Below, one piece after another: positions 3,156 through 55,851 of a stretch of DNA of 64,000 bases. This DNA is from Bolinopsis microptera (Eukaryota; Ctenophora; Tentaculata; Lobata; Bolinopsidae): contig NC_087078.1 in NCBI RefSeq assembly GCF_026151205.1, forward strand, positions 11,108,175 through 11,172,174. The letters are read 5' to 3'. The position numbers were made by a program, and so were the translations under genes. The notes below the pieces were generated by a model. It saw only the letters and a program-made list of their open reading frames with translations. It was not told where the DNA came from and ran no database searches. The stretch's first letter is position 1. Each line of letters opens with the position of its first letter.

Positions 3156-3956
3156 TATGTTACCTCTGTAGTTACCTCTGTAGTTACCTCTGTCGTTACC
3201 TTTGTTGTTACCTCTGTTGTTACCTCTGTTGTTACCTCTGTTGTTACCTCTGTTGTTACCTCTGTTGTTACCTCTGTTGTTACCTCTGATGTTACCTCTG
3301 ATGTAACCTCTGATGTTACCTCTGTTGTTACCTCTGTTGTTACCTCTGTTGTTACCTCTGTAGTTACCTCTTATGTTACCTCTGTTGTTAGCTCTGTTGT
3401 TACCTCTGTAGTTACCTCTGTAGTTACCTCTGTAGTTACCTCTGTTGTTACCTCTGATGTTACCTCTGTTGTTAGCTCTGTTGTTAGCTCTGTTGTTAGC
3501 TCTGTAGTTACCTCTGTAGTTACCTCTGTTGTTACCTCTGTTGTTACCTCTGATGTTACCTCTGTTGTTAGCTCTGTTGTTAGCTCTGTTGTTACCTCTG
3601 TAGTTACCTCTGTAGTTACCGCTGTAGTTACCTCTGATGTTAGCTCTGTTGTTAGCTCTGTTGTTAGCTCTGTTGTTAGCTCTGTAGTTACCTCTGTAGT
3701 TACCTCTGTTGTTACCTCTGTAGTTACCTCTGTAGTTACCTCTGTTGTTACCTCTGTAGTTACCTCTGTAGTTACCTCTGTAGTTACCGCTGTAGTTACC
3801 TCTGTAGTTACCTCTGTAGTTACCTTTGTAGTTACCTCTGTAGTTACCTCTGTTGTTACCTCTGTAGTTACCTCTGTAGTTACCTCTGTTGTTACCTCTG
3901 TAGTTACCTCTGTTGTTACCTTTGTAGTTACCTCTGTAGTTACCTCGGTCGTTCCC
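3156..3956 (+). repeat. 12-bp minisatellite (GTTACCTCTGTT/A)n
   Basis: More than 60 near-identical copies of a 12-bp unit, GTTACCTCTGTN, run in tandem. Variants TCTGAT and GCTCTG occur in patches, so units have spread in blocks. Because 12 is a multiple of three, the plus frame stays open for 282 codons and reads as a Thr-Ser-Val-Val repeat. There is no signal peptide, no recognisable flanking exon and no conserved domain, so I read it as a satellite and not a gene. A few decayed units recur at about 4187-4260. Confidence 0.85.
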
Positions 3957-35349: not shown

Positions 35350-38300
35350 ATGGACTCAGACCAGTCAGAGGTTCTGAGTCGATCTGAAGTCCCTTTGACT
35401 ACCCCTCCTTTTACCTCCGAACCAACCGATGGAGTACAACATCGTGATGTCAGCGTTGATACCATGAGCCCTGCATACCAACTACGATTTTCTCCTGCAG
35501 CGCTGCGAGATCTACCTGAGAATCTGAGCCCATTTTATCGAGATCAGTTGCAAGTTCCAGACAAATATCAAAGCAGCCCTCGTCACAGTAAATCATCTTT
35601 CATCGATACAAACGAATTTGATAGTTCTGATGAAATTGCGAGTATTGGCCCTAGGAAAAACAGTAAAACACCAGAAAACCCAGATTTTCCTGATATTAGC
35701 TCGAATATGTCTGGAAGGTCTGGAAGGTCTGGAAGGTCTGAAAGGTCCGAAAGATCTGAAAGGTCCCACAAGTCCCAAAGATCAGGATATGGCATGTGGA
35801 CGCTTGATACGAATACGATGAATATCATGAATAATCACTTTTTGCGGCACCCCCGGACCCCGACACCTGTCACTACTCAGCAACGGATAACCAAAGCAGT
35901 TGGTAAGTACCGAGATCTCTTATTTATTTTAATATTTTCCAAAGGTTTGAAAAACTAAATTTGCCTATTGAGAGCTCCAGGAATCTATTGTTTGTGATTT
36001 GTGAACATATAACCGTGGGCAATCACGGTAATTTTTGTTCACTTGCAATCTCATTGTCTTGAAAATGTCTTGAGATATTTGCGGGATCATAAACACAAAC
36101 ATAGTAAGTGTAACATGTTTTTACATCATCTATCAAATCGCAGAAAGTCTTACCAGATTAAGCTGATATTCGTTTTACCTTAATTGTTGCACGATTCAGT
36201 AAGAACTAAGTAACTCGGGACTTTTACCGATACTTGAAATTCGATATTTAGCGTCATCTAGCATCATCTACTCAACTAGCATCATCTAGCGTCATTTCAC
36301 GCTAGATGACGCTAGATGACGCTAGATGACGCTAAATGACGCTAGATGACGCTAGATGACGCTAGATGACGCTAGATGACGCTAGATGACGCTAAATGAC
36401 GCTAGATGACGCTAAATGACGCTAGATGTCGAATTTCAACTATCAGTAAAACTAAAGGTCCGTAACTCGATGAATGGATGAATTAAAGTATGCCAAAATA
36501 GCAATCACAAATCAATCATCATTCCTCCCGACACATTATTTGCGAGTTGCGACAAATGAGTGATTCATAGGTATAGCCTACATAAGCACATACGATGGGC
36601 AAGTATAAGGACATGTGAAAAGGCCACATAAAGGCCTTATGGTGGCCGATTAGAGGCTGTATGGCGTCTGAATAGTGGCCGTATAGTGGCCGTATGGTGG
36701 CCGCTTAGAGGCCGTATCGTGGCCGTATTACATTTTTTACTATAGGCTAAATTCTGTCGATATCCCTTCAATGATCTTACGCTATTTTTGGCCGCATGTT
36801 GGCCGCTTAGAGGCTATATGGTGGCCGTATCGGGCGTATGGTGGCTGCATGGTGGCCGCTTAGAGGCTGTGCGAAGGCTGTGTTTATTGTTCATTACACC
36901 CCGAAAGCACATACATATTATCGCTTGCGCCATTAATAACCTGTAAAATAGATACTTTTCATGTTTCTAATAACTTCATAGCGTATAGTAAGATCCGGAA
37001 AGGCATTGTTCTTGACCGTACCACTGTCCATAACAAAACAACTACACTCTCTCTATTCAGGGACCCTTTTCCAATAAAGGCGAGCTAACAATTAACATAT
37101 TCCATCTCAGACATGATATAACTCTTCTTACCTTCTTACCAATTGTCTTTCTTTTCTTAAATTGCATTATAATTTATGAACATGAATTTTATGTCTTGCT
37201 AGTAGTTTTGCTTTTTGTGAGTTAATTAACTTAATTATTGGAAACTATTATTATTGAAAACGGGATCAATACCAATTAGCACTAAATATAGTTGTGAAGG
37301 TGTACAGTTGCCATGGTGACAGATGGTGAGTTTCCAACCAATTTCAGGTCACATGACCAACAAGTTTGATGAGGAGCTAAAAGAGTTCGCCCTGATCACT
37401 TCTGCTCATGGAGTTAGGTATGTCATGTTAGGTATGTCATGTTAGGTATGTCATGTTAGGTATGTCATGTTGGGTATGTCATGTTGGGTATGTCATGTTA
37501 GGTATGTCATGTTAGGTATGTCATGTTAGGTATGTCATGTTAGGTATGTCATGTTAGGTATGTCATGTTCGGTATGTCATGTTAGGTATGTCATGTTAGG
37601 TATGTGATTTAGACCCCACTGCTCATAGAGTCTGGTATGTGATTTAGACCCCATTGCTCATAGAGTTAGGTATGTCATTTAGACCCCACTGCTCAGTGCT
37701 CATGTCACGTTAAGTATGTAATTTAGACCCCGGGCCCGGTGGCCACTGAAATGCAAAAAGCTTGGAGTTTTGTTGGCCACTAGGAATTACCCACATCTAT
37801 TCAAACTCATACATACATGTTACATGGCGAGATCTCCATCCAAAAGGATTAGTCTGCGTCGACTGCGTCATTACTTTGTATTATACAACTTCGGCGGGTA
37901 ACATTTCTCCATCCCTTTCGGTCTGCAGCTAATCTTCTCATACAATCAATCGTGAGTCCATTCTGATCCAATCTCTGCTCAGCATCCTCAATAAATACAT
38001 CATTTAGGCTCTTCCTAGGCTTGCCTCTTGACCTCTTCCCATGCTTGGGTTTCCATTCAAGTAAATAGTTGGGTAACCGATCTTCAGGCATTCTACTGAC
38101 ATGTCCAAACCAACGCAGCCGTTTTGTTGTTATTATGTCAGCAAGAGCAGTTATTGATGCCCTTCTTAAAACATCCTCATTACTTACTCGATGGAACCAC
38201 CTCACTCTCAGGATTCTTCTTAAGCAGTACTGATGGAAAGACTCCAATCTTCTTGTCTGCACTTGAGTCGTGTTCCATATCTCACATCCATAGGTCAGAA

Positions 38301-41300
38301 TGGTAAGAACAGCTGCGATGTAGATTCGCACTTTGTTGTTAATGCTTATGTTCTTATTCTTCCAAATGTTGTTGAGTTGGTTAAAAGCTCCAGTTGCTTT
38401 TCCAATCCTGACACTTATTTCTTTATCAATCTTGCCATCTGATGTAATTTTGGCACCCAAATAAGTGAATTGAGTGACCTGCTTTGCAGAGTTTCCATCG
38501 ACAGTTATATCTATGGTCCTATTCTCTGGGAGTGGGTGCTGCGATGTATCTTTCCCAATGACCATGATCTCTGTTTTCTTTGCGTTCATCTTTAAACCCC
38601 CGAGCCCACAGTATTTCGCAATATTGTCCGTAGTTTCTTGCAGTCCTTCAACAGTGTCATCCATTCCTGCGATGTCATCAGCATAGTCCAGATCAATGAC
38701 ACATTTTTCCGGTTGTCTGGAACTTTGTCTGTACTGAAGAGTAAAACCACGGGATATATTTTTAAACTTCTCTGCAAGTTCTAATCCCCAGTTAAGTACA
38801 AGATTAAAAATGGGGGGCCCTTGCACATCACCTTGTCCAGTCCCCGAATCGACATCAAACCATCTTGTCAATTCTCCATTGACACGAACTGCACTTTCAG
38901 TTGCTCTAAAGAACGCTTTGAAAACATTGATATATTTTGTCGGAAGACCATAATGTTCAAAAGCTTTCCAAATAAAGTCACGATTGATTGAATCAAAAGC
39001 AGCTTTAAAATCAATAAAGTTTATGTACAAAGGGACGTTGAATTCTATACAATTGTGTATTATACAATGAAGTGAGTACAGCTGATCTATACAAGAACGG
39101 TTTCTCCTGAAACCACACTGATTCTCTCTGAGTAATTTTTCAAGCCCATTACTCAGTCTTTTTAACAACACAATTTGGAATAACTTTGATACAGTTGAGC
39201 GTAACGTTATACCTCTGTTATTGTTGCAATATGTGAGGTCCCCTTTCTTTGGGATGATGGTGATTATTCCTTTTCTCCAATCATTAGGAATATCCTCACT
39301 TTTCCACACAGTTTCAAAAAGATCCTTTAACCAAGGCAGAAGTCCAGAAGAACCGTACTTTAACTGCTCATTTGAAATTTCATCAATTCCAGCACTCTTG
39401 TAGTTCTTCAACTTCTTGATAGCTTCCTCAATTTCAAACAAGGACGGTGGCTCATCATCATTACTAAGGTATTCAAAAGAAAGTAACTTTTCATCCTGAT
39501 CCAATATAGAGAAATCCACCGCATTTGCTGCTGGCGTCAAGAGTTCTTCAAAATATTCGGCCCAGCGATGTGACTGAGCTTCGGGATCTGATATAAGTGT
39601 CCCATTCTTATCCCGCACTGCCGCAGATCTGTTTACTCTCTTGTTTGTTAAGGATTTTATTTTCTGCCAAACATCTCTTTGTTGACCCTGCTTGGCAGCA
39701 TCTTCTAATTCCTCAGCTACTCTAACAGCCCAAGCATTATCATCTCTTTTACAGTTCTGCCTAACAAGGCCGTTAATCCGCGAGTACTTAGCACGGTTCT
39801 CAGCAGTACTGGGTTTCTTTTTAATCTCCCCTCGTTCTTTTAGGAGATTTTTAGTATCCCTTGAGAGATGTTCTGTTCTCTTTTTCCGGCCCCTTTCACC
39901 CAGCACTTCAAATGAAACATCAGTTATTATATCTCTCAATTTCTTCCACTGTTCTTCTAAAGGAGAGTTTCCATGCTCCTGATCGTTGTTATAGTACTCT
40001 TCAGCTATTCTGTTACTATATTCCTGGCTCTTAGATCTATCACGCAGGTGCTCTAAAGCAGGCTGTCTTACACGCTTCTTTCTTTTCTGAGGACACTTAA
40101 GTTTAATAGATACATATCCTCTTACCAGATAGTGAGTAGTATTTATATCTGCTCCTCTCATGCTCCTGACATCAAGCAAAGAATGGCTCCATCTCGTCGA
40201 AATACACATATGGTCAATTTGAGTGACGGTGTTACCATTTGGGGATCTCCATGTTGTCTTGTGGATATCTTTGTGTTCAAAGAGTGTGCCTCCGATCGTC
40301 AGCTGGTGCATAGTACAAAAATCTAGCATCCGTTTTCCGTTATCATTTGATTCTGTGTGATATGAGTGTTTTCCTATAACACCAGGGTGAGCATCAGTAT
40401 CCCTTCCAACACGAGCATTAAAATCTCCTAAAACTATTTTTATATCATGAGCAGGTAGTCCCGATTGAACATCATTCAATTCCTTGTAGAATGAGTCTTT
40501 TAAACTGATCTCTGCATCCTCAGTTGGAGCATACACAACTGTAACACTAATGTTGATGTGTTTGCTATGTAAACGGGCAGTCATAACCCGTCCTGATACT
40601 GGGGTGTATGATATGAGAGTATTCTTCATCTTTTTGGAAAGAACAACACCAACTCCTTCTCTCCGTACTCCATCGCTCCTGCCAGAATAAACCAAAACAG
40701 CCCCATTGTCCAAAGTCTGAGTTCCTGATCCAGCCATATGTGTTTCAGTTACCCCAAGGAGCTCTAGTCCATAATCATCAAAACCTTTTCCTAATTGATA
40801 CATCTTACTGGAATTACTGACAAGAGAAGTAACATTCCATGTACTGATACAGAGAGGATTCTTTACAATATTTACAGGATTAGACATACTTGATTGTCTG
40901 TTTACAAATGACAAATCTGATGAAGGAATTCTGTATTTACAGTGTTTACGTCGGCTCTTACGGGAGTTGCAAACAGACATCAAGCTACTAGGGTCCTTTC
41001 GGCTTTGCCTAGTCGCCGTCATCACTCCACCTGCGCCTCCACGTATAATACTATTGAATGACACTGTAGACGTTTCTGTAGCGGTTTGATTTAAGGTGGA
41101 TGGTTTGCCGGACCTTCGCACCCGATCCAGAGGCAGCACCGACATCAAGAAGTAAGCGCTCCGTCCAGACACCAGCAAGCTGGTGGTTAGGTTCGATATA
41201 GGGTTTGCAATCGATAATATCGGCGATAAAATTATAGGCGATAATTCGTAGTAAAATCGTTATCGGTTATCAGCGATAATTTCTGACCGCTAAACCGATA

Positions 41301-44300
41301 ATTTCAGAAATTTCTTTTCAAAAATAATTTCGGAATTTTCGAGACTTTACAGCTAACTCGCAGATTCTTACCTCCCATTTTCACTAGATTGATCATAAGA
41401 TATGTGTGAAACTGATCAAAACATCTGAATTTGCTACTTAAGTACTTAAATCAGCAAGATTTGCAATGTTATCTTATCACTGTTGATTGGTGAAACAAGG
41501 TATGTACTATGTAAAAGTATTCATATTTCATGGGATAGTTGCATATTTGAATTCAACGGAATTAAAGTTTAAACGGTAAATCTGTAATAAGTATCCCGTA
41601 GTTTCGCCCCACCCTATTACAGATAAGCTGTTCACTTCAAACTATCAATTCAGTTACAACCGTATAAGGTAATAATTTGAACCCGACACGGTACTGCACA
41701 GTACACACCATATAACAGCACAATACACTCCTGCACAGTCCACACTCCACGCCCCTCCCCTGAGAAATGCCGATGATTAACTTGCCGAATGCCGATGATT
41801 AACTTGCCTGGGTCACTCATTTGCTTAAATCGTTGATTGATTACGTTACACGTATATATCAGTTGTTATCTGTTTTCTGTTGTGTCTCGGAAAACTAGTT
41901 AATCTTGATATGTCAACCAACGAGATCTGGAAACATTTCACAAAAGAGGGGGACAACGTGGCCTGCATGCAATGTGACAAGTCTTTTCTCAGCACAACAG
42001 CCAAAAGGTCTTACACTAATCTTTGGTACCAATTGAGAGTTAAACACGGTATAGAAAATGCAGCTGCTAATAATGATAAATCTTCGGCATCCCCCAAAGT
42101 CAAGCGACCAAAAAATCAGTCCCTAATAGTATCTTACATCGAAAAGAAAACTCAAGCCGAAATGTATAGCCGTTTAGCGGCTGTGGAGTTCCACTTTGTG
42201 TAAGATTGTTATTGTCACTGACTGTTCACTGTAAAGTATATCGGATCTTCACTTTCAATTAATTGACTATTTTGAAATTACGCGTTTACAATTTGTGTAC
42301 GATATCTCGGGAATTCATGACCCTCAATCACGGAAGTTATAAATCATGAACGTATGATTAATTAAGCCACTGAATCGATGGAAAATAAGCTAATTGTTCT
42401 GACCAAATTTAATCGCCGATAATTATCGTTATCGCCGATAATTGAAAAATTATTATCGGTTATCGGCGATAAAAAATTGTGGACCGATAATGCAAACCCT
42501 AGTTCGATACGTAAAGTTAAAGCATGTAGAGCTTCTGAAGCCCAAAGGGAATCAAAATTAAACCGTAAGTGATCATGTCAGAGACAAGATCACCAAGCAA
42601 ATGCTCGATTACACAGGGCAACCAAGACTTGGACAAAATGGTGAACCGTGAGTGACACACAGATGACCCTGCCACAAGACAGCATCACCAAGCATCACCC
42701 AGCAATCGCATCCTCTCGCCGCCACAGCAACCGACCCCCCAGTGATATAGCACTGACAGGCAATTAACGGTTTTGTGGTGTTACCACTCCCAGGTGATCT
42801 GTGCTAACAGACTCGGACCAGATGCAATGGGGAGCAACTCATGGATTGTAAATCGGGTGCAGGCTGCAGGACGTCATAATAAAGATTTTTGTCAAGCTCA
42901 CAATTATTTTATTTCTACTTCAGGTACATATTCCATGGGCATCGGAGTGTAATAAAAGTTATATTCTTTCTCTTCTGGATAACTGCAGTTTTATTTTGTA
43001 TTGCACGAGCGTCAGTTAGCGTTCAAAAGTACTTGAAAGAGGTTAGGAATCTTAGCTGTTAAAACTAAATATAAATCCCGCCAATTTCATCATTTTTATA
43101 TTATTTTGTAGTACATCTGATTAATGAGCATTTCTGTGTTTATTTTCTTGATTATTATCGCTATAACTCCAAGTTTCCCATTGAATACTGATTAATAAAT
43201 AGGTTATTGGATATCAGTAATTGTTAATACTTCCCAGGAAACAACTACAAGATACGAAATGTACCCAGCTTCTGCCACAGCCATAATGGATTTCCCAACA
43301 ATTACTGCTTGCAACTATAACAAGGTGAAGATTTGGAGATGATTGTGTTTTTTGTTGTGTCGACCCCAATCTCGTGTCATGTAATTATATCCCAATTAAG
43401 TCCACGTGCAAACTTGTTACCAATCATAGGTTATCAAACAGTTTAAAACCTAATATATTCATAGCTTTTCCATCATAATATACACTTCGATGCGACTTTT
43501 GAATGCAGAAGTTAATATTTTTAAAGCCCCTCATAATTGGGAGTGTCTAATGGACTAATTCATCACAATTATAATAGGTTTTAAAATAAAAACCAGGAAA
43601 ACCCAAATGGGCACTCCTGTTAAACGTAACCTCTAGAAAAATGTATCAATAATAAAAATGAAGTCTAATGAAGTCTAATGAAGTTAAACAAAAATTAAAA
43701 AATTAACATAGCATCGATTTGGTTAGGTAATAAAATGACAGGAAGGGAATAAAAACTTAAAATTTTAGACATTATCGCCAATTTTAACTAGAGGCAAAAT
43801 ACAGGATGTCCCAAAAGTGACTACCCACACGCAACCTCTTAATAACTCACGTAATTCGTCTCCAAATTGCACCAAAATTTCAGAGATTATAGATATGGGT
43901 CAAACTTAGATTTCCTGAAAGTTTCGTATTAAGCCACGCCCAATTACAGTGGGCGTGGCGTGACACTTCCTCTTTTTCACTATTGTCTTCATAAAATGAA
44001 AACGCTTTAAGATAAGAACTCAAAATTTTTTGTACACATTTGGCTTGCTAATTTAAAACCTTTCCCAAAGTTTCAAGTTCATTGCTCAAAATTTGGCTGA
44101 GTTATGACCATTTCATATTTATACAAATTTATATTTGACCTCCAAATGCCGCCATGATCCTGTAAATTAAAAATGTACTCGAGGCCCAATCATGATCTGG
44201 ATCATCCCCCTTCTGCAGTTTCAGTATTTTTATCTTACATTGTGATTTGAACGCCTTCAAAGATTGGCATGACACTAAATTAAAAACTTCTTCTATGGAT

Positions 44301-47300
44301 AGCCTAACGGACCTATAAACCAAAGTGTGCCGTTATTAAATTTTGCCGCTATTAAAGAATATTGAATTTTTATGCGTGGCAGTGTTGCAACTGTTAAACC
44401 ATTCATACTCAGTCATAGTTTGCTTCTGTCATTACTCACGAGGTTTACGAAAGCACTTTTTTTTTGCGACGGGCACTGGCCACTGGGCAGGGGCCAGGGG
44501 TAGCTGGAAGTTTTTCATCTTTATAAAAATAATCCTCAAATCCTGCCACAACGGCTTTGATCATTCTTTTCTTTTGTTGACGGAATAAGCACTCAATTTT
44601 GCTCCTAGATCTGAACTAACATAACTGTTTTCATGAAAAGTGTATAACACAGAATTTTTCCGCGACCTGCTATCGTGTGTAGAGGTGTGCTCTCTATTTT
44701 CGGTTAATTGGTTAATGAAATGTGTGGCTTGATTATCTATTCGTTACAAAATACAATTAATGTGATTCTGTTATTCGTTATTGTGCTACATTCATATAAA
44801 TTTCTATAAGAAATGTCGGTTCAAAAACATAAATGTCTGAGGTGGTTGACAATGATATCAAAAAGGAGATGGCAAACGTCCAACAAGTTAATACTACTCC
44901 AACTAGTTCCTTATCAGAATGCATTTGTAAATTTAAATATTTTAGAACGAGGCTAAATATGACACTCCGAAAGCTGAATTTGGTTTAGAGCATTTTCAAA
45001 ACCGAATCAGAAACGGTCAAGTTGTGAAGACAGAGGATGTTAGGAATTTTTGTGGTGTCTTGACTAAAGCTGAACATTTGGACTATAGAGAATTTCAGTG
45101 TTGCAATCTTCCGTTCACACCATTCATGAAAAATGCCTGGTAAAGGAAATTCCCCTCCTGCTAATATACCTACCGAGCCGTATTGTTGCAGTGCAGGTGA
45201 TTCTTTATCTGCTGAAGATACCACTTCGTCCGGGACTGGACAGAAGTGGTATCCGCTAAGTTTGCCAACAAACGACACAAATGTTCACTGTGTGACTACA
45301 GTGAACATTTGTGTTCACTGTAACACAAATGTTAGTATAAAGGTATAACAAACAATCCTTGCAGATAAGGAAATCATACTTAGCCAAGAAGCCGGAGCTT
45401 AACGAATGGTTTGAGGGGATCTCTAATTTCAACTTTGGACAGCTCAAGGACCTGGACTGGGAGAGTTCCGAGTTGAAGACATTTGAAAACATTACCTACG
45501 CCGTGAGTCAAGATCAACTGTTTACTCCAGTTAATAAATTGACATAAGTTAAAATATTCAGGCTAAATTCTTGACACAAATTGAAATATTTAAGCTAAAT
45601 TCTTAACATAAATTGAAACTTTTAAGCCAAATTTTTAATATAAATTGAAATATTTAAGACCACCATGATAGTAGAAAGTCGAAACAAGAAATCACGCTCA
45701 GGATTTATTACGCGAGGGGGAGATGTATAACGATACGTTCATCACGTGTACTCAAGGTCATCTGAGGTACTGTCACGATACTGACATGGGAGACGGCTAC
45801 TTTTCCAGGGTGGGATGTTTACATTTTTGAGGGGACATTTTTGGTGTATGTCCCCTAATGCCGCGGTTGCACCGCTATTTTTGATCTATTATACATGAGT
45901 TATTTTGACATCTTTCTAAAATTTTTCTATTTTAATATTTTGCTTTCTCTGGCACCACTAACATGACAATGTGATTTATGTTTAATTTCATGTTAAATTA
46001 TTATGTTAAATTATTATATTAAATTATTATGTTAAATTATTATGTTAAATTGTAACCCTTTAACTCTTATCAATCTTATCAATCTTTATTAATATCACTT
46101 TCGCTATAATGAAATAGGGAGAATAGTCTTTATGGTTATATTTTAATGACATGGAATAACAGGCTTTATTTCAGGATGTAGAGTTTGTGAGTGGAAGCTG
46201 TTTCAGAATAAACCCCGAGGGTAACTTAAAAGGGAAAAGTGGTGATTACGGAGTCCTCTCCTTGATACTTCTAGCCGATAAAGACGAGTATGGCTTTATA
46301 TCATTATTATCATGAATTATGTATTATAATTTTAATTGGTATCGTTTTGCAACTGTCAGGCAGCCTGCAAAACGTTACCAATTTAAGACAGGTTGCCGGA
46401 CAGTTGCGGCCTTTCTCACCCAATGTAGATCAAGTTACCATGGGAAAATAACGAATGAAAACCAATAAAAACTGCTTAATCAAATACAACCGTTAATCAA
46501 CCACTCATCATAATACCCTCAGATACACTGACTCAAGCAAGAGTAATATTGGCTGGGTCGTGGCTACACACGAGGCAGAGAGGTACGGGGCCTCTATAGA
46601 TAACGGGATCAAGATATCACCTGGACACGCTTACTACATTAACATCGATACCATGATCGTAAGTTTATTGAATATTGAACCAGTACAAATATGTTTTACT
46701 GGTTCATTTTTTAACCGAATACTTCAAATAGCTTAAATGATCTGGTCCTAAAATTGTGTCACAACTGAGATGCTGAAAGTTGGATTCCGGTCAAGTCTAT
46801 GTGATTTCAAAACAAATGCTAATAAATCCGTCATCAACAGATACGCAACCATAAAAAGCACTGTGCAGCAACAAAAGGGAAGATATCAGGATATGGCAGA
46901 TATGATCAATCTACCTGTCTTCTGGACTGTAGAGATAGGATGCTTAACAACACGTGCGGGTAAATAGGCAGTCTTATGTTAGAGATTTTAAGTTTTTAAG
47001 GCTGAAGTGCAAAAATTGTTAAAAAGATAATCAGCTGATTTAATTGGGGAGTTTTCTATTATATTACTAAAATTCTCGACTTAAATAAAATAACTTCGTA
47101 TTGCTAATTAACATCATGGGAATATATCTTCTTGTATTTGCGCCTCTGTCAATGGTCTCATCTCCGCAGATGCTTAATTTCAACCCCTCCGTTGAATGAT
47201 GTGTTCCAGTACAAAGAATGTACGATAAGGCAGGTTGCTTCTTGTAGTTTGGAAGCTTACTACAGATTTGGTAAGCCAAAGTTTCAATTTGAATAACTAA

Positions 47301-49701
47301 TTTACAGCTCTTTTCGGCCAGCCGAATTTTTCTCAGCTCTGTAAAGATATATTTTATAATTTAAACTGAAATGAGTCAGTAATGGTGTACAAAAAAAAGT
47401 TGTCCAAGAAATAGTGTCCCACAAGTTTCTTTGGATAACCGCCATCAAAACCCTGATCCCAGTATAACTTTAGTGCTCGACTTTGCGGACGTGAATAGTG
47501 ACTACGACGAGTGCGGATGTAAAGTGGTAGCATGTGAGTACACCCTCTTCAGGACAACTGTCACAGCCACTCCCATACCTGACACGGAGATTCAGTACAA
47601 GCTTAATGCGTGGAAGCATCCCAGAAACTTTCACAAGTGAGTAAAATAGTCCCAGAAACATTCACAAGTGAGTAAAATAATTCCAGAAACATGTACAGGG
47701 GTCAGGTGAGTATAGTGAAAGTCAAACACAAGAAAACATTTTGTTTCGTTATGCAAATTTTAATGATAAGTAACGTTATTCATAAAGAAAATAAAAAAAC
47801 TCCAAATAAAGAACAAATTTACGAGAAAAGTCCTTATAGATTTTACAGAGATTTGAAGATTGATCAATATTAATTGCAAGTATCATAGGAGAGGTCACAT
47901 TAGTCTTCATCATTTGGCTTTATCATCTGTCTCTATCATCTTATCGCAGTCTTGTAAGCTTGTATACTCTATTTCCCGGATTTCCCATATCTGCAGAGAG
48001 ATGGTTGTTTCTTGCATAACAGATCTCCGAGCGCAGTCCCACCATTACCACTGTCATATGTAAAAACATCCACTTCTACCTTTTTATCCTGACTTCCTCC
48101 TCCCTTATTTTGTCTTTTTCTGCAGGCCGGTAATTTGGGGAATCTTTTGCATTTCCAACTTTTAGCCGTTACCGAAATGGTGAGTAGGAGTAAAATACCC
48201 ATTAACAGTAGCAACAGTGACAATCGCTTAACCATAATTTGCTGGAAAATTTGCAAGGATTACAAACGCAAAGATTTTCAGAATAATCAGGATTTTAGCT
48301 TTAAGGACTAAAAGGATTCTCCTGATAGAAGCAATGGTGAACGCCGTCTTCGACACCTAATCTTATACGATTTCTTTTCTTCAGATCACGGCAGATATAA
48401 ACCAAAACTAAACACTAAACAGAACTGTAGAATAATGTTTAGTTGCACTCAAATTATGGTTATGTTATCATCCTCCCTCTTCTTCTACAATTGTGATGTG
48501 TCAGTTGTGGTTTCAATGTGGCCATTATATTCTATTCTAATTTTGTGCACATATTAAAATGGAATATGTAGAATGTACATATTATAGTGAAACAAAGGGA
48601 AACCACTATGTGTGAACGTCATACTAGGAGGTGTGATCAATTAAACTAAAACACTGTGACCAAATCTGGTGATTTTCTGGTAAGTACATAATTTATAGTT
48701 GCATATCAGAGCTACTTCAGCTAGTGAGTTATGCCTAATTGAAGGTTAAGACTGAATCTGGAGGAGTCATTTTGGGGTCTGCGAAATAATTTCCACCGAT
48801 ATTTTGTCGAGCTGAACATTTTGCACCCTTTGAACATCCTCGATTTGCTTGAATCTCAAAAATGTGGAGCTGGAGGTCAGATTCACAAGTTTTAATCCGA
48901 CAATTCAGTGGTAGTGGTACTTCAGCTAGTGAGTTATGTCAAATTTAAGGATAAGACTGGATCTGGACGAGTCATTTTAGGGGCTACCAAATAATTTCCA
49001 CCGCTATTTTGACGAGCTGAACATCTTGCACCCTTTAAACATCCTTGATTGGATGAGTTCAATATCCTTTATTTTGTTTCTTTTTTAATATCCCGACAAT
49101 CTCCGTAGTACATAATTGGGTGCTGTTTTCAGGTTTAAACGGTTTTCTAACTACACAGCTGACGATCTCGCGTAAGTTAAACTTAACTCGTTTCGCCTCA
49201 TGACACCAAGTTAGAAGTCTTGATAAAAAATGAAAATGTGATATATATTTATTTTGATTTTTTTACAAAACATGAGGTGCAACAAAATATTCTTGTTGCA
49301 GAGAGAACATGGCGAGGGTGGAATTCTTTTTCGGGTCAAGCTCTATAACAAAAGTTGAGGAAATTATCGCTTACGACTTTGACAATTTATTGGGTACGTC
49401 TTACTTACAAATCACTTTTGTCTCTTCTCACATGTACACAGGCTTTAACCCTTACTCGCTTCTTTATAGCAAAAGCTACATTTTGATCCTTTCATCAAGG
49501 ATATAATGTATAATTTCACACTGTTCATCAGGTGACATAGGCGGTGTAATGGGACTATTCCTGGGAGCCAGTGTCTTCACCACCATGGAGTTCTTCACTC
49601 TGCTTATCAACTTATTATCACGTCTGTGGCAGTTGAAGATAGGACCCTGGCTGCACCCGGAGAGGAGGGACAGGGGTGTTATCTCAGGGACAGACCTTTA
49701 G
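35350..49701 (+). CDS. DEG/ENaC-family sodium channel, 16 exons, 799 aa
   Basis: Exons: 35350-35902, 37348-37417, 42924-43041, 43238-43324, 44946-45139, 45192-45342, 45365-45502, 45702-45809, 46175-46287, 46523-46658, 46841-46959, 47170-47270, 47426-47636, 49133-49171, 49302-49393, 49532-49701. All phases agree. The 184-aa N-terminus is long for the family and ends in Arg-Ser repeats. Then come the HG gating motif (ITSAHG, 201-206), TM1 (about 217-240), the post-TM1 motif FPTITACNYNK (266-276), a cysteine-rich extracellular domain (LLDCR, CGC...C blocks), the pre-TM2 segment MARVEFFF, and TM2 with GLFLGAS (GAS selectivity filter, 755-757). Known family members form trimeric, amiloride-sensitive Na+ channels gated by protons, peptides or force. 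The gating stimulus here cannot be read from sequence. Plasma membrane. Introns host a MITE, a LINE, a hAT element and an antisense peptide gene. Confidence 0.93.
35707..35781 (+). repeat. 9-bp coding repeat: Arg-Ser tract in the channel N-terminus
   Basis: Tandem TCTGGAAGG-type units encode SGRSGRSGRSERSERSERS, followed by HKSQRS. It lies in the cytoplasmic N-terminus. The plausible role is phosphorylation-dependent regulation, which is inference. Minus-strand open frames over it are shadows. Confidence 0.85.
36218..36461. mobile_element. hAT-like MITE with internal 10-bp minisatellite
   Basis: In DEG/ENaC intron 1. The ends GGAC..TTTTACCGATACTTGAAATTCGA and the inverse pair as TIRs. Both flanks read GTAACTCG (36210-36217 and 36462-36469), an 8-bp target duplication. 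The interior is a tandem array of GACGCTAGAT on one side and its inverse on the other. Confidence 0.85.
36617..36885. repeat. Degenerate GGCCGTATGGT minisatellite
   Basis: Irregular copies of GGCCGTATGGTGGCCGCTTAGA-like units in two blocks (about 36617-36730 and 36790-36870) of intron 1. Confidence 0.75.
37410..37606 (+). repeat. 14-bp minisatellite made of copied 5' splice sites
   Basis: Exon 2 of the channel ends GTTAG|GTATGT. The unit GTATGTCATGTTAG is then repeated about 13 times with rare variants (TTGG, TTCG), so each unit recreates TTAG|GTATGT. Slippage has evidently multiplied the donor site. Longer degenerate units (GTATGTGATTTAGACCCCA) follow to about 37700. Confidence 0.9.
37849..41178 (-). 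CDS. LINE polyprotein: AP endonuclease, reverse transcriptase, DUF6451-like C-terminus
   Basis: Open for 1109 codons. The likely ATG is near 41145 or further in. Domains in order: endonuclease about 105-370 (STWNVTSL, TETHM, LGDFNARVG, IDHMCIS); reverse transcriptase about 590-880 (NNNRGITL, FIDFKAAFDSI, GTGQGDVQGPPIFN, LDYADDIAG with the catalytic Asp pair); then a C-terminal region with FTYLGAKI and CLRRILRVRW. It copies its own RNA at a nicked target. The GTGQGDVQGPP block in place of the common RQGCLLSP is a subtype found in invertebrate elements. The usual SDH at the end of the endonuclease reads TTH (GADINTTHYLV), so nicking may be impaired. No stop or frameshift was seen, so the insertion is recent. 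The exact clade is unsure (RTE/Nimb-like?). Confidence 0.9.
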   Translation of the reverse strand: MLVSGRSAYFLMSVLPLDRVRRSGKPSTLNQTATETSTVSFNSIIRGGAGGVMTATRQSRKDPSSLMSVCNSRKSRRKHCKYRIPSSDLSFVNRQSSMSNPVNIVKNPLCISTWNVTSLVSNSSKMYQLGKGFDDYGLELLGVTETHMAGSGTQTLDNGAVLVYSGRSDGVRREGVGVVLSKKMKNTLISYTPVSGRVMTARLHSKHINISVTVVYAPTEDAEISLKDSFYKELNDVQSGLPAHDIKIVLGDFNARVGRDTDAHPGVIGKHSYHTESNDNGKRMLDFCTMHQLTIGGTLFEHKDIHKTTWRSPNGNTVTQIDHMCISTRWSHSLLDVRSMRGADINTTHYLVRGYVSIKLKCPQKRKKRVRQPALEHLRDRSKSQEYSNRIAEEYYNNDQEHGNSPLEEQWKKLRDIITDVSFEVLGERGRKKRTEHLSRDTKNLLKERGEIKKKPSTAENRAKYSRINGLVRQNCKRDDNAWAVRVAEELEDAAKQGQQRDVWQKIKSLTNKRVNRSAAVRDKNGTLISDPEAQSHRWAEYFEELLTPAANAVDFSILDQDEKLLSFEYLSNDDEPPSLFEIEEAIKKLKNYKSAGIDEISNEQLKYGSSGLLPWLKDLFETVWKSEDIPNDWRKGIITIIPKKGDLTYCNNNRGITLRSTVSKLFQIVLLKRLSNGLEKLLRENQCGFRRNRSCIDQLYSLHCIIHNCIEFNVPLYINFIDFKAAFDSINRDFIWKAFEHYGLPTKYINVFKAFFRATESAVRVNGELTRWFDVDSGTGQGDVQGPPIFNLVLNWGLELAEKFKNISRGFTLQYRQSSRQPEKCVIDLDYADDIAGMDDTVEGLQETTDNIAKYCGLGGLKMNAKKTEIMVIGKDTSQHPLPENRTIDITVDGNSAKQVTQFTYLGAKITSDGKIDKEISVRIGKATGAFNQLNNIWKNKNISINNKVRIYIAAVLTILTYGCEIWNTTQVQTRRLESFHQYCLRRILRVRWFHRVSNEDVLRRASITALADIITTKRLRWFGHVSRMPEDRLPNYLLEWKPKHGKRSRGKPRKSLNDVFIEDAEQRLDQNGLTIDCMRRLAADRKGWRNVTRRSCIIQSNDAVDAD
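41199..42501 (+). mobile_element. hAT-type element, 1.3 kb, inserted in the LINE
   Basis: The ends TAGGGTTTGCA... and the inverse (TGCAAACCCTA) are TIRs. Both flanks read GTTCGATA (41191-41198 and 42502-42509), an exact 8-bp target duplication. Subterminal repeats of ATCGCCGATAA and its inverse occur at both ends, likely transposase binding sites. It keeps a BED-finger ORF but no catalytic domain, so it is a deletion derivative mobilised in trans, if at all. Confidence 0.93.
41910..42203 (+). CDS. BED-type zinc finger remnant of a hAT transposase, 97 aa
   Basis: The protein starts MSTNEIWKHFTKEGDNVACM and has the BED pattern: aromatic W and F near the start, CxxC (CMQC), then NLWYQLRVKHG supplying the His. 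BED fingers bind DNA at the N-terminus of hAT transposases (ZBED-like). The frame closes after a basic SPKVKRPKNQSL linker, where the RNase-H-like catalytic domain should follow. The product could at most bind element ends. The ATG at 41910 is chosen because the upstream frame begins outside the finger. An unseen intron to a lost 3' part is possible, but the element leaves little room. Confidence 0.8.
   Translation: MSTNEIWKHFTKEGDNVACMQCDKSFLSTTAKRSYTNLWYQLRVKHGIENAAANNDKSSASPKVKRPKNQSLIVSYIEKKTQAEMYSRLAAVEFHFV
43802..44075. repeat. Dispersed repeat, copy 2 (first copy at 18826)
   Basis: It begins TACAGGATGTCCCAAAAGTG and matches 18826-19095 in block order (see that entry). It lies in DEG/ENaC intron 4. 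Confidence 0.6.
45275..45314. repeat. 17-bp perfect inverted repeat inside a channel exon
   Basis: ACACAAATGTTCACTGT (45275-45291) and its exact inverse (45298-45314) are separated by 6 nt. A third, partial copy in rearranged order follows (TTCACTGTAACACAAATGTT). All lie in exon 6 of the DEG/ENaC gene and encode TNVHC..VNICVHCNTNV. Confidence 0.9.
47612..47692 (+). repeat. Duplicated exon end and 5' splice site
   Basis: CCCAGAAACTTTCACAA|GTGAGTAAAATA, the end of exon 13 with its donor, is repeated directly as CCCAGAAACATTCACAA|GTGAGTAAAATA. A third partial CCAGAAACATG follows. Use of the second donor would add about 31 nt and shift the frame. Confidence 0.85.
47969..48235 (-). CDS. Candidate neuropeptide / secreted Cys-peptide precursor, 88 aa, nested antisense
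   Basis: A single intact exon, ATG at 48235, TAG at 47969. Residues 1-24 are a strong signal peptide (basic VKR, then an 18-residue Leu-rich core, SVTA cleavage end). The remainder is short, basic and has four cysteines in two pairs: C29-KRFPKLPA-C38 followed by RKR, and C74-KKQPSL-C81 followed by RYGKSGK. The C-terminus has the amidation signal Gly-Lys (RYG-K), giving an Arg-Tyr-amide end. KK before QPSL could instead be a dibasic cut exposing a pyroglutamate-capable Gln. These are hallmarks of peptide prohormones; processing is inference. It lies antisense in intron 13 of the DEG/ENaC gene, a family that includes peptide-gated channels. It could also be another small secreted Cys peptide. 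I recognise no named homologue. Confidence 0.6.
   Translation of the reverse strand: MVKRLSLLLLLMGILLLLTISVTAKSWKCKRFPKLPACRKRQNKGGGSQDKKVEVDVFTYDSGNGGTALGDLLCKKQPSLCRYGKSGK
48712..49053. repeat. Direct repeat of about 140 bp in DEG/ENaC intron 13
   Basis: 48712-48853 and 48914-49053 share TACTTCAGCTAGTGAGTTATG, AAATAATTTCCACCG and GAGCTGAACAT.TTGCACCCT in order. Confidence 0.8.
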
Positions 49702-49704
49702 TTT

Positions 49705-50860
49705 TGCAAAACAACTCACTATTCTGTGGATAAGGAGATCTTGCAGTTATTTATTGGAGACTATTCAGAGGACTACTCGATAAAGGATAATGTATTATTT
49801 CATCGTGTTATCCATTACTCCTTGCCCATGTAAAAGCGAACTAAACCTTTAGACTTTAGAGTTTAGATGTAGGTAAGAACTAAAAAGCTTAGAGTGTCAA
49901 CAAGAACTTAAAATTGTGAGTTGAACGAAACCTTTCTAATTTAGTAATTGATTTATGATAACCAACGGTTTCGCCTTCGGTTGCATTTAGTACGAAAGAA
50001 TTCCAAACAGTAACAATAGTAATAAACATTAAATCACTTGCGAGAGATTAATTATGGATTTCATTATAAAATCCATCCGAGTTCCGATTTCCAACAAACG
50101 GCTAGTGACCCAGTTTGTTTCGTTGTTAATCGAGCTCTGCGAACTATAATTTAGATATCATTTATTAAGTACCGCCATACTGTTATGCAACGTTTACAAG
50201 CGCTAAAAACTGGACTTTTTTAATCTTTTTAAGCATAATAAAAATATTGAACTTTATTGATTAATGAAAGTTTTGTAATGTATGAACCATTCGACGATCT
50301 TTATGATTATTATCAATCATTTTATCTACTATTAGTATTATATCATTCATCATCAAATATTAATTCTAACTCATCGTCGTTTTCCTCACAAATTGAAAAT
50401 AAAAAACAAGTGTCCTAAAATTGTAATCTTGGAAATTGGAGTCAAATTATATTTTAGGAATTAATTAAATTGAACATGATGAAACTGGAAGAAAAAAATT
50501 AAAGCAATATACAATTTAATTTTGACAACCTGTTGACACATCGGTAATTTTACTGGGCGGCGTTCAGCCTGTCATTCTGCCAAATCTTTATTAATGTTTA
50601 TGAACATTATACTTTATAGCCTGCGGTCCCAGGTTAAGTCGATAAAATAACGAGAGACCACAGGAAATGCGAAGCTAGTTAAAGACTGGGAGTGAAATTT
50701 AAGTCAAAATAACAATGCAGTTAACTTAGACGAGGTTATATCATAAATCAATAACAATAAATTAATCAACACATACAAAAAACGATCCAAAACAAATTAA
50801 GCAATATTAAACAAATTTACCGCCCAATAACCGTCCAATTAACTGCCCATTAACTGGCCG
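49705..50860. other. Intergenic region between convergent genes
   Basis: 3' flank of the channel (plus) and of the sulfotransferase (minus). An AATAAA near 50237 could serve the channel transcript. No gene seen. Confidence 0.5.
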
Positions 50861-50862
50861 TG

Positions 50863-53800
50863 TCAGTCCAGATTATAAATAAACTTCTTAGTAGTTTTAT
50901 CAAAGAAACTGTTGGTAACTCTGTCTACACTGGAACACTCCTCAGCCGAAAGGTGGTTCTCCCAGTCACCAACTTTTCCTTGACGCAAGAAATCAGCACT
51001 GAAATTAAATGTGAAATTAAGTAATACGCTTACATTAGATTGAGTTTAATATTGTAAAATATAATGCCCGAACTGTATAAACACCTGAACTATAAGCTTA
51101 TGAGAGACGGAGCAAGGACATAAAAGATAACGATTAGATGTGTCGCCCGAAATTTTGATGGTTATAAGTTTGTATTTCTTAAGATTTCTGTAAATTTTCA
51201 TACCTGTTAGGCTTACGGCGATGTTCGAAGCGGCTCATGTTGGCATTACTGTCCACCTTCATTCTGTTGAAAGCACAACGCTCTTTAATAGACTCTAGAT
51301 CTTCGTTCGACAAATTTCTCAGTCCCAAAAATCTGTAAATTCAGTAACGATATATCAAATTGGAATCAACGATTCAATTTTATAAGGCATTTCCAAAATT
51401 AAAGTCACACTTGACCAAGATCAATTAAAGAATCCAATCTTCATTCTCAAAATTAGTGCAACCTTACCTGTTCAATTTCATGACAATCTTCTCAAAGTTG
51501 AGGTGCAGAGATTCATAGTCTATGTGAAAGATATCCATGTTGTTCAGGTTTTCAAAGTAGTCTAAAGTATGGCCAAACCATGAACCGTATGGGAGTTTTC
51601 CTTTTGTGAAGAGTTCTACAAACTGAGACAAAGGTTCATTGTACTCGTATGCTCTGATAGAGGAAAGTAATTCAAACAACATATACAAATAAATTTAGCA
51701 ATGTTATTATCTAACCATACAGTTAGATAATAGATACCCTCATAAAATTAACCTAATAATTTAAAATGGTAATAAAGACTAAAAATGTGGGTAAAAACCC
51801 ATTGACAATTCAATAAACAGGCTCTATTCTCTAAGTTTGTTATTTTGTATTGCACCCCTGCGGAGTGCGGCATTACGAAATATAACGGTTATTTCAAGCT
51901 GTACCTATTATTAGTATTACAGTACTAGCAATTTGTTTGACTTCATGGGCCCGCGAGGCGCGACCGTGACCAATGAACTCAGACCACTAAATAGTCTCAA
52001 ATTCCCTTCCTGCAGACCTCATGTCCTCAATCCTCGTAGTCATACTGTTTAGGTAATATAAGGAATGTGCTTTTCACCCTAGTGTTCACCTCCTAATTGT
52101 TGCGGTCTCATGTTGACGGATGTTACTCGTCTAAATTTCTTCGAAGTAGCGCGCGCCGCTTTTTTCTCGAAATGTAGCGCGCCGGGCCAGCTGATCATTA
52201 ACAATGGTCAAGGTCTCATGTAAACAACGAGCAACTCGCCGTTCGCACGTCTTATAATTAGCTGACCTAGCAGATAAGTCCACTACTAAAATAGTCAGCA
52301 GGGAGACTAAAGCTTAAGCAGTGGTGAGGGAAGATTCGAGTTGAGTCTACGATATACAGTATCATACAGTAAAGTTTGATATCCTCAGTATCAGATTAAG
52401 TGATTCCATACCTCTTCTCCACATTAACTCATACTCTCATACTAAAAAACGTTATTTTCCATTCTCTCGCACTAGCCATAATACAGTGCTGTCTTTTGGT
52501 GTGTAGATTCGTGTTGATTATGTGCTCTCTACTACTGCCTTACTTGTGCAATAGGCAGTATCATGCTTGCAGTATCAGTCATGATACAGTAAAACGTAAT
52601 TTTGTCAAAGCTAAAGACCGCGATCCCCCGGCTTCCGCAAGCCAGCGAATAAAGAGATGCCCCAAATAGCTAGTTTATGGAACTGTAAAGTTCCGTAAGA
52701 CCGTTGGACGATTAACCCAGCGACAAACCTATAGTTTCTATTCCATTATTCATCTATTCAACAATAGACCTTGGCCCTTGCTTAGTACAGCTCAATGCTA
52801 TATATAATATCTCAAGACTGTTCATCACGTTTTGAAACAGTTTAACGGTGTGGCTTAACACGTGGCACACGTAGCATAGGTTACACTTGGTAAGGGGAGG
52901 GTGTGATCTAGTTGTAGGCGGGCACAATACAACCTATCTACGTTTTATTTTGCATGCTTCTGAACATCCTTGATTTTCAATCGAATTATATTCGACCTAT
53001 GGGGACAAGTCGGAACATACTCCTTCATCTTCTGATTATCTTGATGGTGGAAAATGATGTTACTATCGCAGGTAAACGTTTGAGAGAACCTTATATTATT
53101 TCAGTCACTATTGATACGTTTCACTGAAGGATTTGTTATAGAAGTGGTAATATAATCCTGAATTTAACAACTGCTCCCTAAGAGTAAGGTCCTTTATAGC
53201 GCTAAACACTCTAAAATGTTTCAGGGAAAGTTGAACCTGCATCAGTGTCCCAAAGCAGCACTCTCGCTTGGAGTGGTAATGCAGAGAAGGCGGAATCTGC
53301 TACTGACGGTGATCTGAAAACAAAATCGCACACTCAGTGTGGATGGAACACTGACTTGTGGTTCAAAATGAAGTTTGATGAAGTCTTCTGCTTCTTTGAA
53401 GTGGTCATCCTCCAGTCCCATCTCAATGATAACGCTTTTCGTATGCAGGACACGAAAGTATTTGTAGTTAACATAGATACAGGAATTGAGAATCTCTGAG
53501 GAGTTCTCAAAATCAGCCCTGTTTTGACTATAGAAGGCCAAACGTATAGAATTCCTTGTCATCTGAACTGTGGCAATGAAGTGAAGCTGACGGTGAGACA
53601 TGACCCTGGCAGCTATGCCGTCAAAGCATGCATTCACATGAAAGAAATAATGGCATTTGGTGCAGGTATGTCAAAAATGCCAAATAATATTTCGGTTTAA
53701 AATCATCAATGATCGGATGTGTACAATATGTTGATCCATCTACAATTAATTTTGTTGAAGAAGAATATGGATTAGCATGGGTACGGTGGTAAAAATGGGA

Positions 53801-55447
53801 GGGATAGTTCAGTACGACTAATTCATTATAACTACTACTGTTTTGGTTTCATTTACAGATTATGTTTCAGATTTAACACAGATATCTTATAAGAAGTCCA
53901 TATCTTCTAGAATGATCGGTGCATACTGCATCATATTATTTTATATCTACTATATAAGTATATAAAGGGAGATGTATATTATTCCACCGCATCTACTCAT
54001 TCAAAGTTAAGGTAACAATTAGTTGGAAATCCGAAATTAAACTAACTTTTACTTACATCAATTAATTAAATCAATTAATCAAATCGATTGATTAAATCAA
54101 TTAATCAAATCAATTAATTAAATCAGTTAATCAAATCAATTAATTAAATCAATTAATTAAATCAATTAATCAAATCAATTAATTAAATCAACTAATTAAA
54201 TCAATCAATCAATCAATTAATTAAATCAATTAATCAAATCAATTAATTAAATCAATTAATCAAATCAAACAATTACTTTAATGAGTACCTATAGCCGGAC
54301 ATATGATGAAAGTAAGAGACCAGAACATCTTTAGGGTTTCTGGTCAGGTAGATGTACTTAGTCTTAGTTCCGGGTCTCCAGGCTAAGTTATTGTATGTTT
54401 CGTGTGTTGTCATAACTCGGGGCGATGTCATAGCGTTAAACTCCTGTGTAAACAAGGGATCAATAGATTTCATCACAAATGACAAAGCAGGTGCATTATG
54501 ATAGCGCTTGCATTAAATTTCAAACATTTCAAATATGCGGAAGGAAAAACCTACGACAAACTAGTGACTAGACGTATTGTGCCTCAATCATATCGAGGTT
54601 AAAAACTGTGCCTTCATTATATGGAGATTGGAGGTTAAGTAACTGTTTACTGTACCTCAATATCTAACAGCTCAATCCAGGGCACTGCCTGGGAAAGGTT
54701 GTTTCTGAGTGAAATCCTGCTGTCCTTGTTCACACCGTTCTTCTCGTAAAGACATTTCAGTATTTGCTGTACCCATAGAGTCCCTGTTTATAAGTTAATT
54801 TATAACTAATTATTGATTTGTTACAAATTATTAATATTGTCCGGTTGATGGTGTTCGACTGAAAATGATTTTTTTGAGGTAATTTAAGGAAGGCAATTGA
54901 AAATTAAAATAATAAATAAAAATTACCAAACAGGTTGCTAACCTGATTTAGGATAGGTAACCAAAATAACATCGTCATCCCTCAGCTCGTAGTTTGATGT
55001 TCTGTGTATCTCGTTGCCGTCTATCAACTGTTAATATGAAGCGTCATATCACTAGTAGCGTCATATCACTATAGTTTACTAAAGACTTGAAACCTCGACT
55101 AAAGTTAACCTTTTTCCACTATTTATATTAGAGTAAAACATATTCAGAGCTCCTAACATGTGATCATGGTTCCCGGTCGAGTTGGAACTTAAACTTTTGT
55201 CAATATTGAGCCTGATGAACGACAGACAAGCATTGACTCACAATTATTTTGGATTTATTTTGGATTTATGAGAACCAGTCCAGCACAGATTTAGTATTAT
55301 TACTATTAGGTATACACTTAATCTAGTGCACGGTTAATAAGCTGACATTTAACATACCGGTGGGTATATCTGTCCACACAGAAAGTTGTGTCTGAACGGC
55401 AGGTTGAGAGGAGGGAACAACCTTTTTATGGGCATATTCCAATCCAT
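50863..55447 (-). CDS. Cytosolic-type sulfotransferase (SULT), 7 exons, 302 aa
   Basis: Minus-strand exons, 5' to 3': 55447-55358, 55027-54943, 54783-54656, 54443-54289, 51653-51468, 51332-51204, 50998-50863. All phases agree and the length is normal for the family. Enzymes of this type move sulfate from PAPS to a hydroxyl or amine of a small molecule in the cytosol. Seen: the 5'-phosphosulfate loop TYPKSGTLW (54-62), a His at 115 in the position of the catalytic base (MTTHE; the usual neighbouring Lys is Thr), the 3'-phosphate motif RNPKDVLVSYFHH (136-148), YGSWFGH, and the C-terminal FLRQGKVGDWENH. No signal peptide or membrane anchor. Intron 4 (2.6 kb) contains a lectin-like gene on the other strand. 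The substrate cannot be inferred. Confidence 0.9.
52236..52435. repeat. Array unit leader, copy 1
   Basis: GCACGTCTTATAATTAGCTGACC...GTGAGGGAAGATTC...ACGATATACAGTATCATACAG recurs at 55995 and 60893. It marks the left edge of each unit of the lectin/sulfotransferase array, about 0.6 kb upstream of each lectin start. It may carry promoter or 5' UTR function; that is inference. Confidence 0.75.
52999..53965 (+). pseudogene. Fucolectin/discoidin-like secreted protein, copy 1, with premature stop
   Basis: Exons 52999-53071 (signal peptide, MGTSRNILLHLLIILMVEND), 53225-53665 (galactose-binding-like domain) and 53859-53965. The domain has ATDGD-type, HTQCGWNTDLWFKMKFDEVF and VKLTVRHDPGSYAVKACIHM stretches that fit the F5/8 type C/fucolectin fold. 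Compared with the intact copy at 61662, the Cys codon of ENLCG is TGA here (53497-53499), which removes the second half of the domain. The splice sites remain good. The last exon would add a hydrophobic tail (IILFYIYYISI). It is nested in the sulfotransferase intron 4 on the opposite strand. It may be a pseudogene, a recoded or truncated protein, or a sequence error. Confidence 0.7.
54057..54272. repeat. AT-rich 12-bp minisatellite, copy 1
   Basis: Tandem AATCAATTAATTA/AATCAATTAATC units in sulfotransferase intron 4, ending just before the donor of exon 4. The paralogous array is at 58893. Confidence 0.9.
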
Positions 55448-55851
55448 GTCGAGTTAAAATGCAGGTGGTTACTGATAACAAAGAAAAATAGACATTAAAT
55501 AAGCTAGTGTTAAAAGTGTAGTGGGCCAAGGTTTTACTTTCAGTTTTAACCCACGCATTATATTGCATATATTGTGTAAACTTTCAGATGCCACTTTGAG
55601 ATCAGACTTTTGGAAGCTTAACTTTTTACAAGTTTTTCGCACAATTAAGTTTACTACCACGAGTTTCTAAAATTTCGTAAGTCAAAATAAATGAACACAT
55701 ATTGCTGAACTTATCAAAAATTCACCTATTTAATCCACCACTCCGACAAACGATAAATCAATGCTGAGCTGGAGGAGGACGCACTCGATGCAGTTGTCCT
55801 GAGCACGCCCTGCCAAACTCACCAAAACGTACCAAAACGTTTTAAATACAA

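Follow-up and report, generated by a model that had tools for sequence, protein, structure and literature searches.

Vasopressin-like peptides are of the cysteine (Cys)-loop type. According to the sections of PMC9525235 available here, they are predicted in the ctenophore Pleurobrachia pileus and undetected in Bolinopsis mikado, the amidated neuropeptide precursors of which include NPWa, VWYa, FGLa, WTGa, and RWFa. The ctenophore repertoire is described there as one of short amidated peptides, and the words "cysteine" and "disulfide" are absent from the main text of this source. In Hormiphora californensis, 1654 host genes harbor 2357 nested intronic genes, which make up 12.24% of exonic bases, and a spliced leader is carried by 56% of Iso-Seq reads (PMC8527503, in the part available). 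Given this frequency of nesting in Hormiphora, a secreted gene placed antisense within an intron would be nothing unusual for ctenophores, provided that Bolinopsis is alike. A frame of this layout was analyzed in a stretch of 64,000 nt from Bolinopsis microptera (hereafter the window; assembly GCF_026151205.1, contig NC_087078.1, positions 11,108,175 to 11,172,174). It has 88 codons and lies on the minus strand within a DEG/ENaC channel gene. As in the nested genes of Hormiphora, the unit is wholly inside one host intron; those genes, however, stem from an annotation based on Iso-Seq, whereas the present frame is known from the DNA sequence alone. That it is a real secreted-peptide gene, placed antisense within an intron of a DEG/ENaC gene unrelated to it, is in our view evenly balanced between holding and failing; this and the other likelihoods worded below are the author's judgement and were not computed. 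The frame and its parts are as follows.

47969 to 48235, minus strand: candidate secreted-peptide precursor frame, 88 amino acids (from translation; chance rate for it, codon use against it)
48164 to 48235, minus strand: putative signal peptide MVKRLSLLLLLMGILLLLTISVTA, 24 codons (leader hydropathy 3.26)
48122 to 48151, minus strand: first Cys loop, CKRFPKLPAC (C29 to C38), then RKR (from translation)
47993 to 48016, minus strand: second Cys loop, CKKQPSLC (C74 to C81), then RYGKSGK (from translation)

Direct translation yielded an intact frame from ATG to TAG, exactly as the original prediction had placed it, with A at position −3 and G at position +4 of the start codon. After a hydrophobic leader of ∼24 residues (MVKRLSLLLLLMGILLLLTISVTA) comes a basic loop (KSWKCKRFPKLPACRKR), which a spacer separates from the second loop (LLCKKQPSLCRYGKSGK). 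The two short cysteine pairs claimed before are present as the only four cysteines, spaced C29-x8-C38 and C74-x6-C81, and strongly basic residues surround both loops of the predicted mature part (KSWKCKRFPKLPACRKR; CKKQPSLCRYGKSGK). The loops are loosely alike (C-K-[KR]-x-P-x-L..C), with 14 of 400 shuffles being equally good under gap costs chosen by the author. By the author's application of the −3,−1 rule, leader cleavage would occur after VTA; the crude scorer used here halts at the first allowed cleavage site, residue 19. A DNA search of the genome found a single copy of the frame, and neither a second copy nor an allele.

The case for a gene is carried by the combination of leader and length. 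The leader hydropathy of 3.26 was the highest among 140 open reading frames (ORFs) of at least 60 amino acids in a comparison set of 187.5 kb, consisting of the window and 13 arbitrary 9.5-kb stretches. A score of 2.0 was passed by only 4 of the 140, three of which lie in the window. The signal peptide named in the original prediction was, in this sense, recovered, by a crude scorer of hydropathy and the −3,−1 rule whose score alone is nonspecific. Chance rates were obtained from 24 Mb of order-2 Markov sequence, with criteria picked after seeing the frame. ORFs of at least 80 amino acids with a leader score of at least 2.5 arose there at 1.4 per Mb, or 0.088 per 64 kb (33 events), those with a score of at least 3.0 at 0.29 per Mb, or 0.019 per 64 kb (7 events), and those with at least three dibasic sites in addition to the latter score at 0.04 per Mb, or 0.0027 per 64 kb (one event only). 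Leader plus length is, hence, rare by chance. These rates speak against the alternative that the frame is a chance ORF in intron DNA, whose ATG happens to precede a series of hydrophobic codons and then a lysine-rich stretch, as does a G+C content of 42% in the ORF versus 35% elsewhere in the host intron.

This alternative is nevertheless a substantial one, somewhat short of an even prospect, and a considerable number of observations weigh against the frame being a gene. Its length alone is ordinary: ORFs of at least 80 amino acids arose in the Markov sequence at 157 per Mb, or ∼10 per 64 kb, and the feature was selected post hoc from the whole window. Extended to the whole genome, chance would be expected to produce ∼77 ORFs of at least 80 amino acids with such a leader, ∼11 of them with three dibasic sites. 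The specificity of the leader score could be gauged at the NPWa gene of this genome, which served as a positive control. When the NPWa peptide of B. mikado was searched against the genome, a single match appeared (contig C13, 88% identity, reading GSDIKLAPGGGNPWGRK-stop), weak by E-value (0.013) because the query is so short. The corresponding precursor (locus L003, near 11682743, minus strand) has three exons and 68 amino acids (MKQSMALLLTILGVIVLAQSK...IGSDIKLAPGGGNPWGRK-stop), a leader exon being followed by introns of 222 and 315 nt and the end reading G-R-K-stop. Its leader scored 3.15, near that of the 88-residue frame, and another short frame within this 3-kb locus reached 3.16, again indicating that the leader score alone is nonspecific.

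One of these counterarguments comes from codon use. The training set of the codon log-odds consisted of the host gene and six single-exon DEG/ENaC paralogue frames (locus L010, which yielded an incorrect frame of 126 codons, was left out), and 69 coding windows, scored with each gene left out in turn, were compared with 147 other ORFs; the background loci were concatenated, so that a few ORFs span joins (148 ORFs in one codon comparison versus 140 in the leader comparison). The 88-residue frame scored −0.102, below all 69 held-out coding windows (lowest, −0.048; area under the curve [AUC] 0.92), and 58% of the 147 other ORFs (median, −0.084) scored at or above it. When only synonymous choices were counted, it scored −0.068, with none of the 69 coding windows as low, if narrowly (lowest, −0.067; AUC 0.86), and with 61% of the 147 ORFs at or above it. 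A different minus-strand frame within this stretch, interrupted by six stops, scored 0.056 versus −0.098 for the 88-residue frame in a comparison made without hold-out of the coding windows. Within the frame, the mature part (−0.030) scored above the leader (−0.292). Codon use, thus, lies within the range of random ORFs and speaks against coding. Among the controls, a sulfotransferase gene from outside the training family was coding-like (0.079 and 0.058), as was the NPWa precursor (0.067). The synonymous-only score of the latter was −0.013, a value reached by 28% of random ORFs and, among coding windows, within the lowest 19%; the codon test is, therefore, less decisive for short peptide genes. 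A Kunitz search for additional coding controls gave no match in this genome or in the control genomes.

Searches for relatives of the frame returned none. A protein search of the genome at E up to 10 found only the frame itself, the best Pfam match had an E-value of 0.5 (10.4 bits versus a cut-off of 27), and PDB sequences gave no match up to E 10. NCBIfam gave no match, and of 84 pattern stretches in IMG/VR none was confirmed; both are collections of prokaryotes or viruses. Rfam, searched with the whole window for an RNA explanation, gave no match at the gathering score. In literature text, the strings SLCRYG and CKKQPSLC were unmatched, and SLCRY occurred mostly in plant light-response papers, in one on a fungus, and in two on fish hepcidin or a hepcidin-bearing fish genome. 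A chance ORF would be expected to be without relatives in such searches and single copy, as observed. The neuropeptide gene nested in antisense that had been proposed, hence, survives as a candidate in that leader plus length is rare by chance, whereas codon use and the lack of a homologue in the collections searched tell against it.

The processing sites, too, fit a prohormone only in part. The dibasic sites predicted before are present, as KR, RKR, KK, and KK, but one KR and one KK fall within the Cys loops, leaving RKR after the first loop and KK in the spacer. The C-terminus is SLCRYGKSGK, as stated in the original prediction; its final Y-G-K-S-G-K-stop holds a G-K, but not the usual glycine-plus-dibasic signal, so that the amidation-type end stands only in this reduced form. 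Of the products proposed earlier, pQPSLCRY-amide is weakened as a candidate: because the KK lies within the second Cys loop, a cut there would leave this peptide with an unpaired cysteine. Like the amidated precursors of ctenophores, the frame is short and of the secreted type, with basic sites and a glycine near the C-terminus, and the hydropathy of its leader resembles that of NPWa. Unlike NPWa, with its three exons, acidic spacer, and G-R-K-stop, it consists of one exon with basic Cys loops ending in Y-G-K-S-G-K-stop. A neuropeptide function of the predicted product would be plausible.

If the frame is a real gene, it may alternatively encode a cationic antimicrobial or other defence peptide with two basic loops of a single disulfide each. 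Single-disulfide cationic antimicrobial peptides form a general class, with which the frame shares a short, basic loop held by a single Cys pair, but no sequence similarity was found in Pfam or the PDB. Such a function, which is a sub-case of a genuine secreted-peptide gene, appears unlikely. In its favor, each loop of the mature part has very basic surroundings, KR and KK inside the loops suit uncut loops better than prohormone cleavage, and the canonical glycine-dibasic amidation end is missing. Neither a Pfam family above its cut-off nor a PDB sequence argues for it, and it carries every weakness of the coding case.

The sequences flanking the frame were inspected for signals of transcript processing, which gave two candidates.

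48242 to 48261, minus strand: splice-acceptor-like sequence AATCCTTGCAAATTTTCCAG, six bases (CAAATT) 5′ of the ATG (acceptor matrix score)
47759 to 47764, minus strand: possible polyadenylation signal ATTAAA with a T/G-rich stretch downstream, within the host intron (by inspection only)

The acceptor-like site (TTTTCCAG) scored 1.89 in a matrix built from only the 13 acceptors of the host gene. An equal or better score was reached by 19% of 15,091 background AG sites, and since 1448 of 3924 background ATGs (37%) have an equally good acceptor within 40 nt, the acceptor before the candidate ATG is not discriminating, which adds to the points against a gene. It was, hence, dropped as strong support, but could take a 5′ untranslated exon or a trans-spliced leader. 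On contig C13 of this genome, the 3′ end of the ctenophore spliced leader followed by GTA occurs in three exact copies within 67 kb on one strand (C13:12827404-12894454), probably a spliced-leader gene cluster; the reversed control gave no match.

By inspection, GT sites inside the frame, for example, ATTTCG|GTAACG, present candidate donors. It is, thus, conceivable that the leader alone is real, with the ATG exon ending at such an internal GT and being spliced to other minus-strand exons. The NPWa gene of this genome has such a layout, with its leader exon followed by two introns. On the other hand, the frame stays open for 64 further codons that hold the basic and Cys motifs, and no downstream exon was identified, though by a search that was not systematic; we regard this arrangement as improbable.

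If, instead, the frame is the small single-exon gene of a secreted peptide precursor, the channel gene would be its incidental host. Cis-splicing, or trans-splicing of a leader, at the acceptor preceding the ATG would form the start of the mRNA, which would terminate inside the host intron. Once in the secretory pathway, the precursor would lose its leader, and cuts at basic sites may release one or two short cationic peptides, each presumably closed by one disulfide and acting outside the cell. Of the two roles such peptides may have, that of a peptide messenger appears slightly likelier than that of a cationic defence peptide.

The host gene and the intron that harbors the frame were modeled from the window sequence.

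42924 to 49701, plus strand: DEG/ENaC (ASC) channel gene, 13 modeled exons from the first transmembrane segment (TM1) to the stop codon, the 5′ exon or exons upstream of 42924 being unplaced (joined open frame, Pfam ASC)
47637 to 49132, plus strand: host intron of 1496 nt, GTGAGT...TTCAG (exon model)
48704 to 49050, plus strand: about two copies of a ∼200-bp satellite-type repeat, outside the 88-residue frame, with approximate limits (spacing 205)

The 13 exons have GT-AG boundaries and join into a single open frame, so that the gene has at least 13 exons; the exon-joining script retained 16 equivalent chains that differ in small alternative boundaries. The joined exons matched Pfam ASC with an E-value of 9.7e-51 over residues 2 to 491 of 524, from TM1 to TM2, which identifies the predicted host product as a DEG/ENaC family member with an ASC domain (TM1, extracellular domain, TM2). 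The frame lies wholly within intron 47637 to 49132, on the strand opposite to that of the host gene. This is the largest intron in the 3′ half of the gene, as the original prediction had it, and the second largest of the 12 modeled, the largest being 43325 to 44990 (1666 nt). For the ∼200-bp satellite of this intron, the genome holds at least 91 matches (its own included), which are frequently arranged in tandem and spread over many contigs. A direct duplication at the intron donor (47637 to 47697; GTGAGTAAAATA...CCAGAAACAT, 30 nt, 87%) yields a second donor-like site 31 nt downstream. A genome-wide search for the ASC family gave at least 47 other DEG/ENaC exon or gene matches; the same search gave no match within the window, where the host exons are short. 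At least six DEG/ENaC paralogues (loci L004 to L009) are long uninterrupted frames of 480 to 566 amino acids, whereas the window gene has at least 12 introns; these paralogues are possibly retrocopies or the result of intron loss.

The original prediction went further and proposed a ligand gene paired with a gene of its receptor family. In its favor, some DEG/ENaC channels are peptide-gated, namely FaNaC, MGIC, and HyNaC (PMC9822975, in the part available). According to the portions of PMC9822975 and PMC10507113 available here, ctenophore DEG/ENaCs are monophyletic and lie beside or within clade A groups including the HyNaCs, and some trees put them next to, or in one group with, the clade A subclade of the HyNaCs, which would favor the idea. 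Their placement varies by study, is called ambiguous in PMC9822975, and leaves some channels unplaced in PMC10507113. The ligands of the known peptide-gated examples are RFamides or Wamides rather than Cys-loop peptides (PMC9822975, same portion), and neither source names, in these portions, a tested peptide-gated ctenophore channel. The host shares with FaNaC, MGIC, and HyNaC its membership in the DEG/ENaC family, but is closer by sequence score to ASIC1: when its sequence was compared with PDB sequences by phmmer, ASIC1 scored 59 bits, above the FMRFamide-gated channels with 48 and 36 bits. Nothing beyond position ties the frame to the channel, and position is weak evidence, because nesting is common in Hormiphora, the neighboring sulfotransferase gene of the window also hosts an antisense frame of the secreted type, and there are at least 47 other DEG/ENaC matches in the genome. 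To our knowledge, the ligand genes of the known peptide-gated DEG/ENaC pairs are not nested in channel genes. That the frame encodes a ligand and sits within the gene of the very peptide-gated receptor on which this ligand acts is, on this evidence, very improbable. Equally remote is the fuller version, in which the gene of a disulfide-closed peptide messenger lies antisense within that of the channel opened or modulated by this messenger, with ligand and receptor regulated as one locus.

The sulfotransferase gene lies at ∼50850 to 55460 on the minus strand (PF00685, E-value 7.2e-8 for exon 51464 to 51682; the remaining exons were placed by eye). Its ∼2.6-kb intron hosts the secreted-type frame at 52999 to 53670 on the plus strand, with a leader exon MGTSRNILLHLLIILMVENDVTIAG and then KVEPASVSQSSTLAWSGN..., which is lectin-like to the eye and has an in-frame TGA, possibly marking a pseudogene. 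Its first open piece had no Pfam match, and the codon scores of its two open pieces were 0.039 and −0.047. A further ORF of 69 amino acids (8766 to 8975, minus strand) has a signal-peptide-like start and a proline-rich remainder (MIVPNGKRFLFYLALVAVASTATRRCQACPPPV...), and had no Pfam match either. Upstream of the modeled channel exons, the region ∼37900 to 41150 (minus strand) has, on inspection, the look of a retroelement of the long interspersed nuclear element type, with endonuclease-like and reverse-transcriptase-like coding, and a long array of a ∼12-base repeat (GTTACCTCTGTA and variants) was seen by reading at ∼3160 to 3950.

At present, the 88-residue frame is one unverified candidate, from a group in which gene nesting is reportedly common. 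Should it prove a real precursor, a peptide of the Cys-loop type would join the repertoire of ctenophores, described in the part of PMC9525235 available as one of short amidated peptides, and this would bear on how peptidergic signaling began. Were the host channel, in addition, the target of its product, ligand and receptor would lie in one locus, which would speak to whether the ancestral DEG/ENaC channel was peptide-gated.

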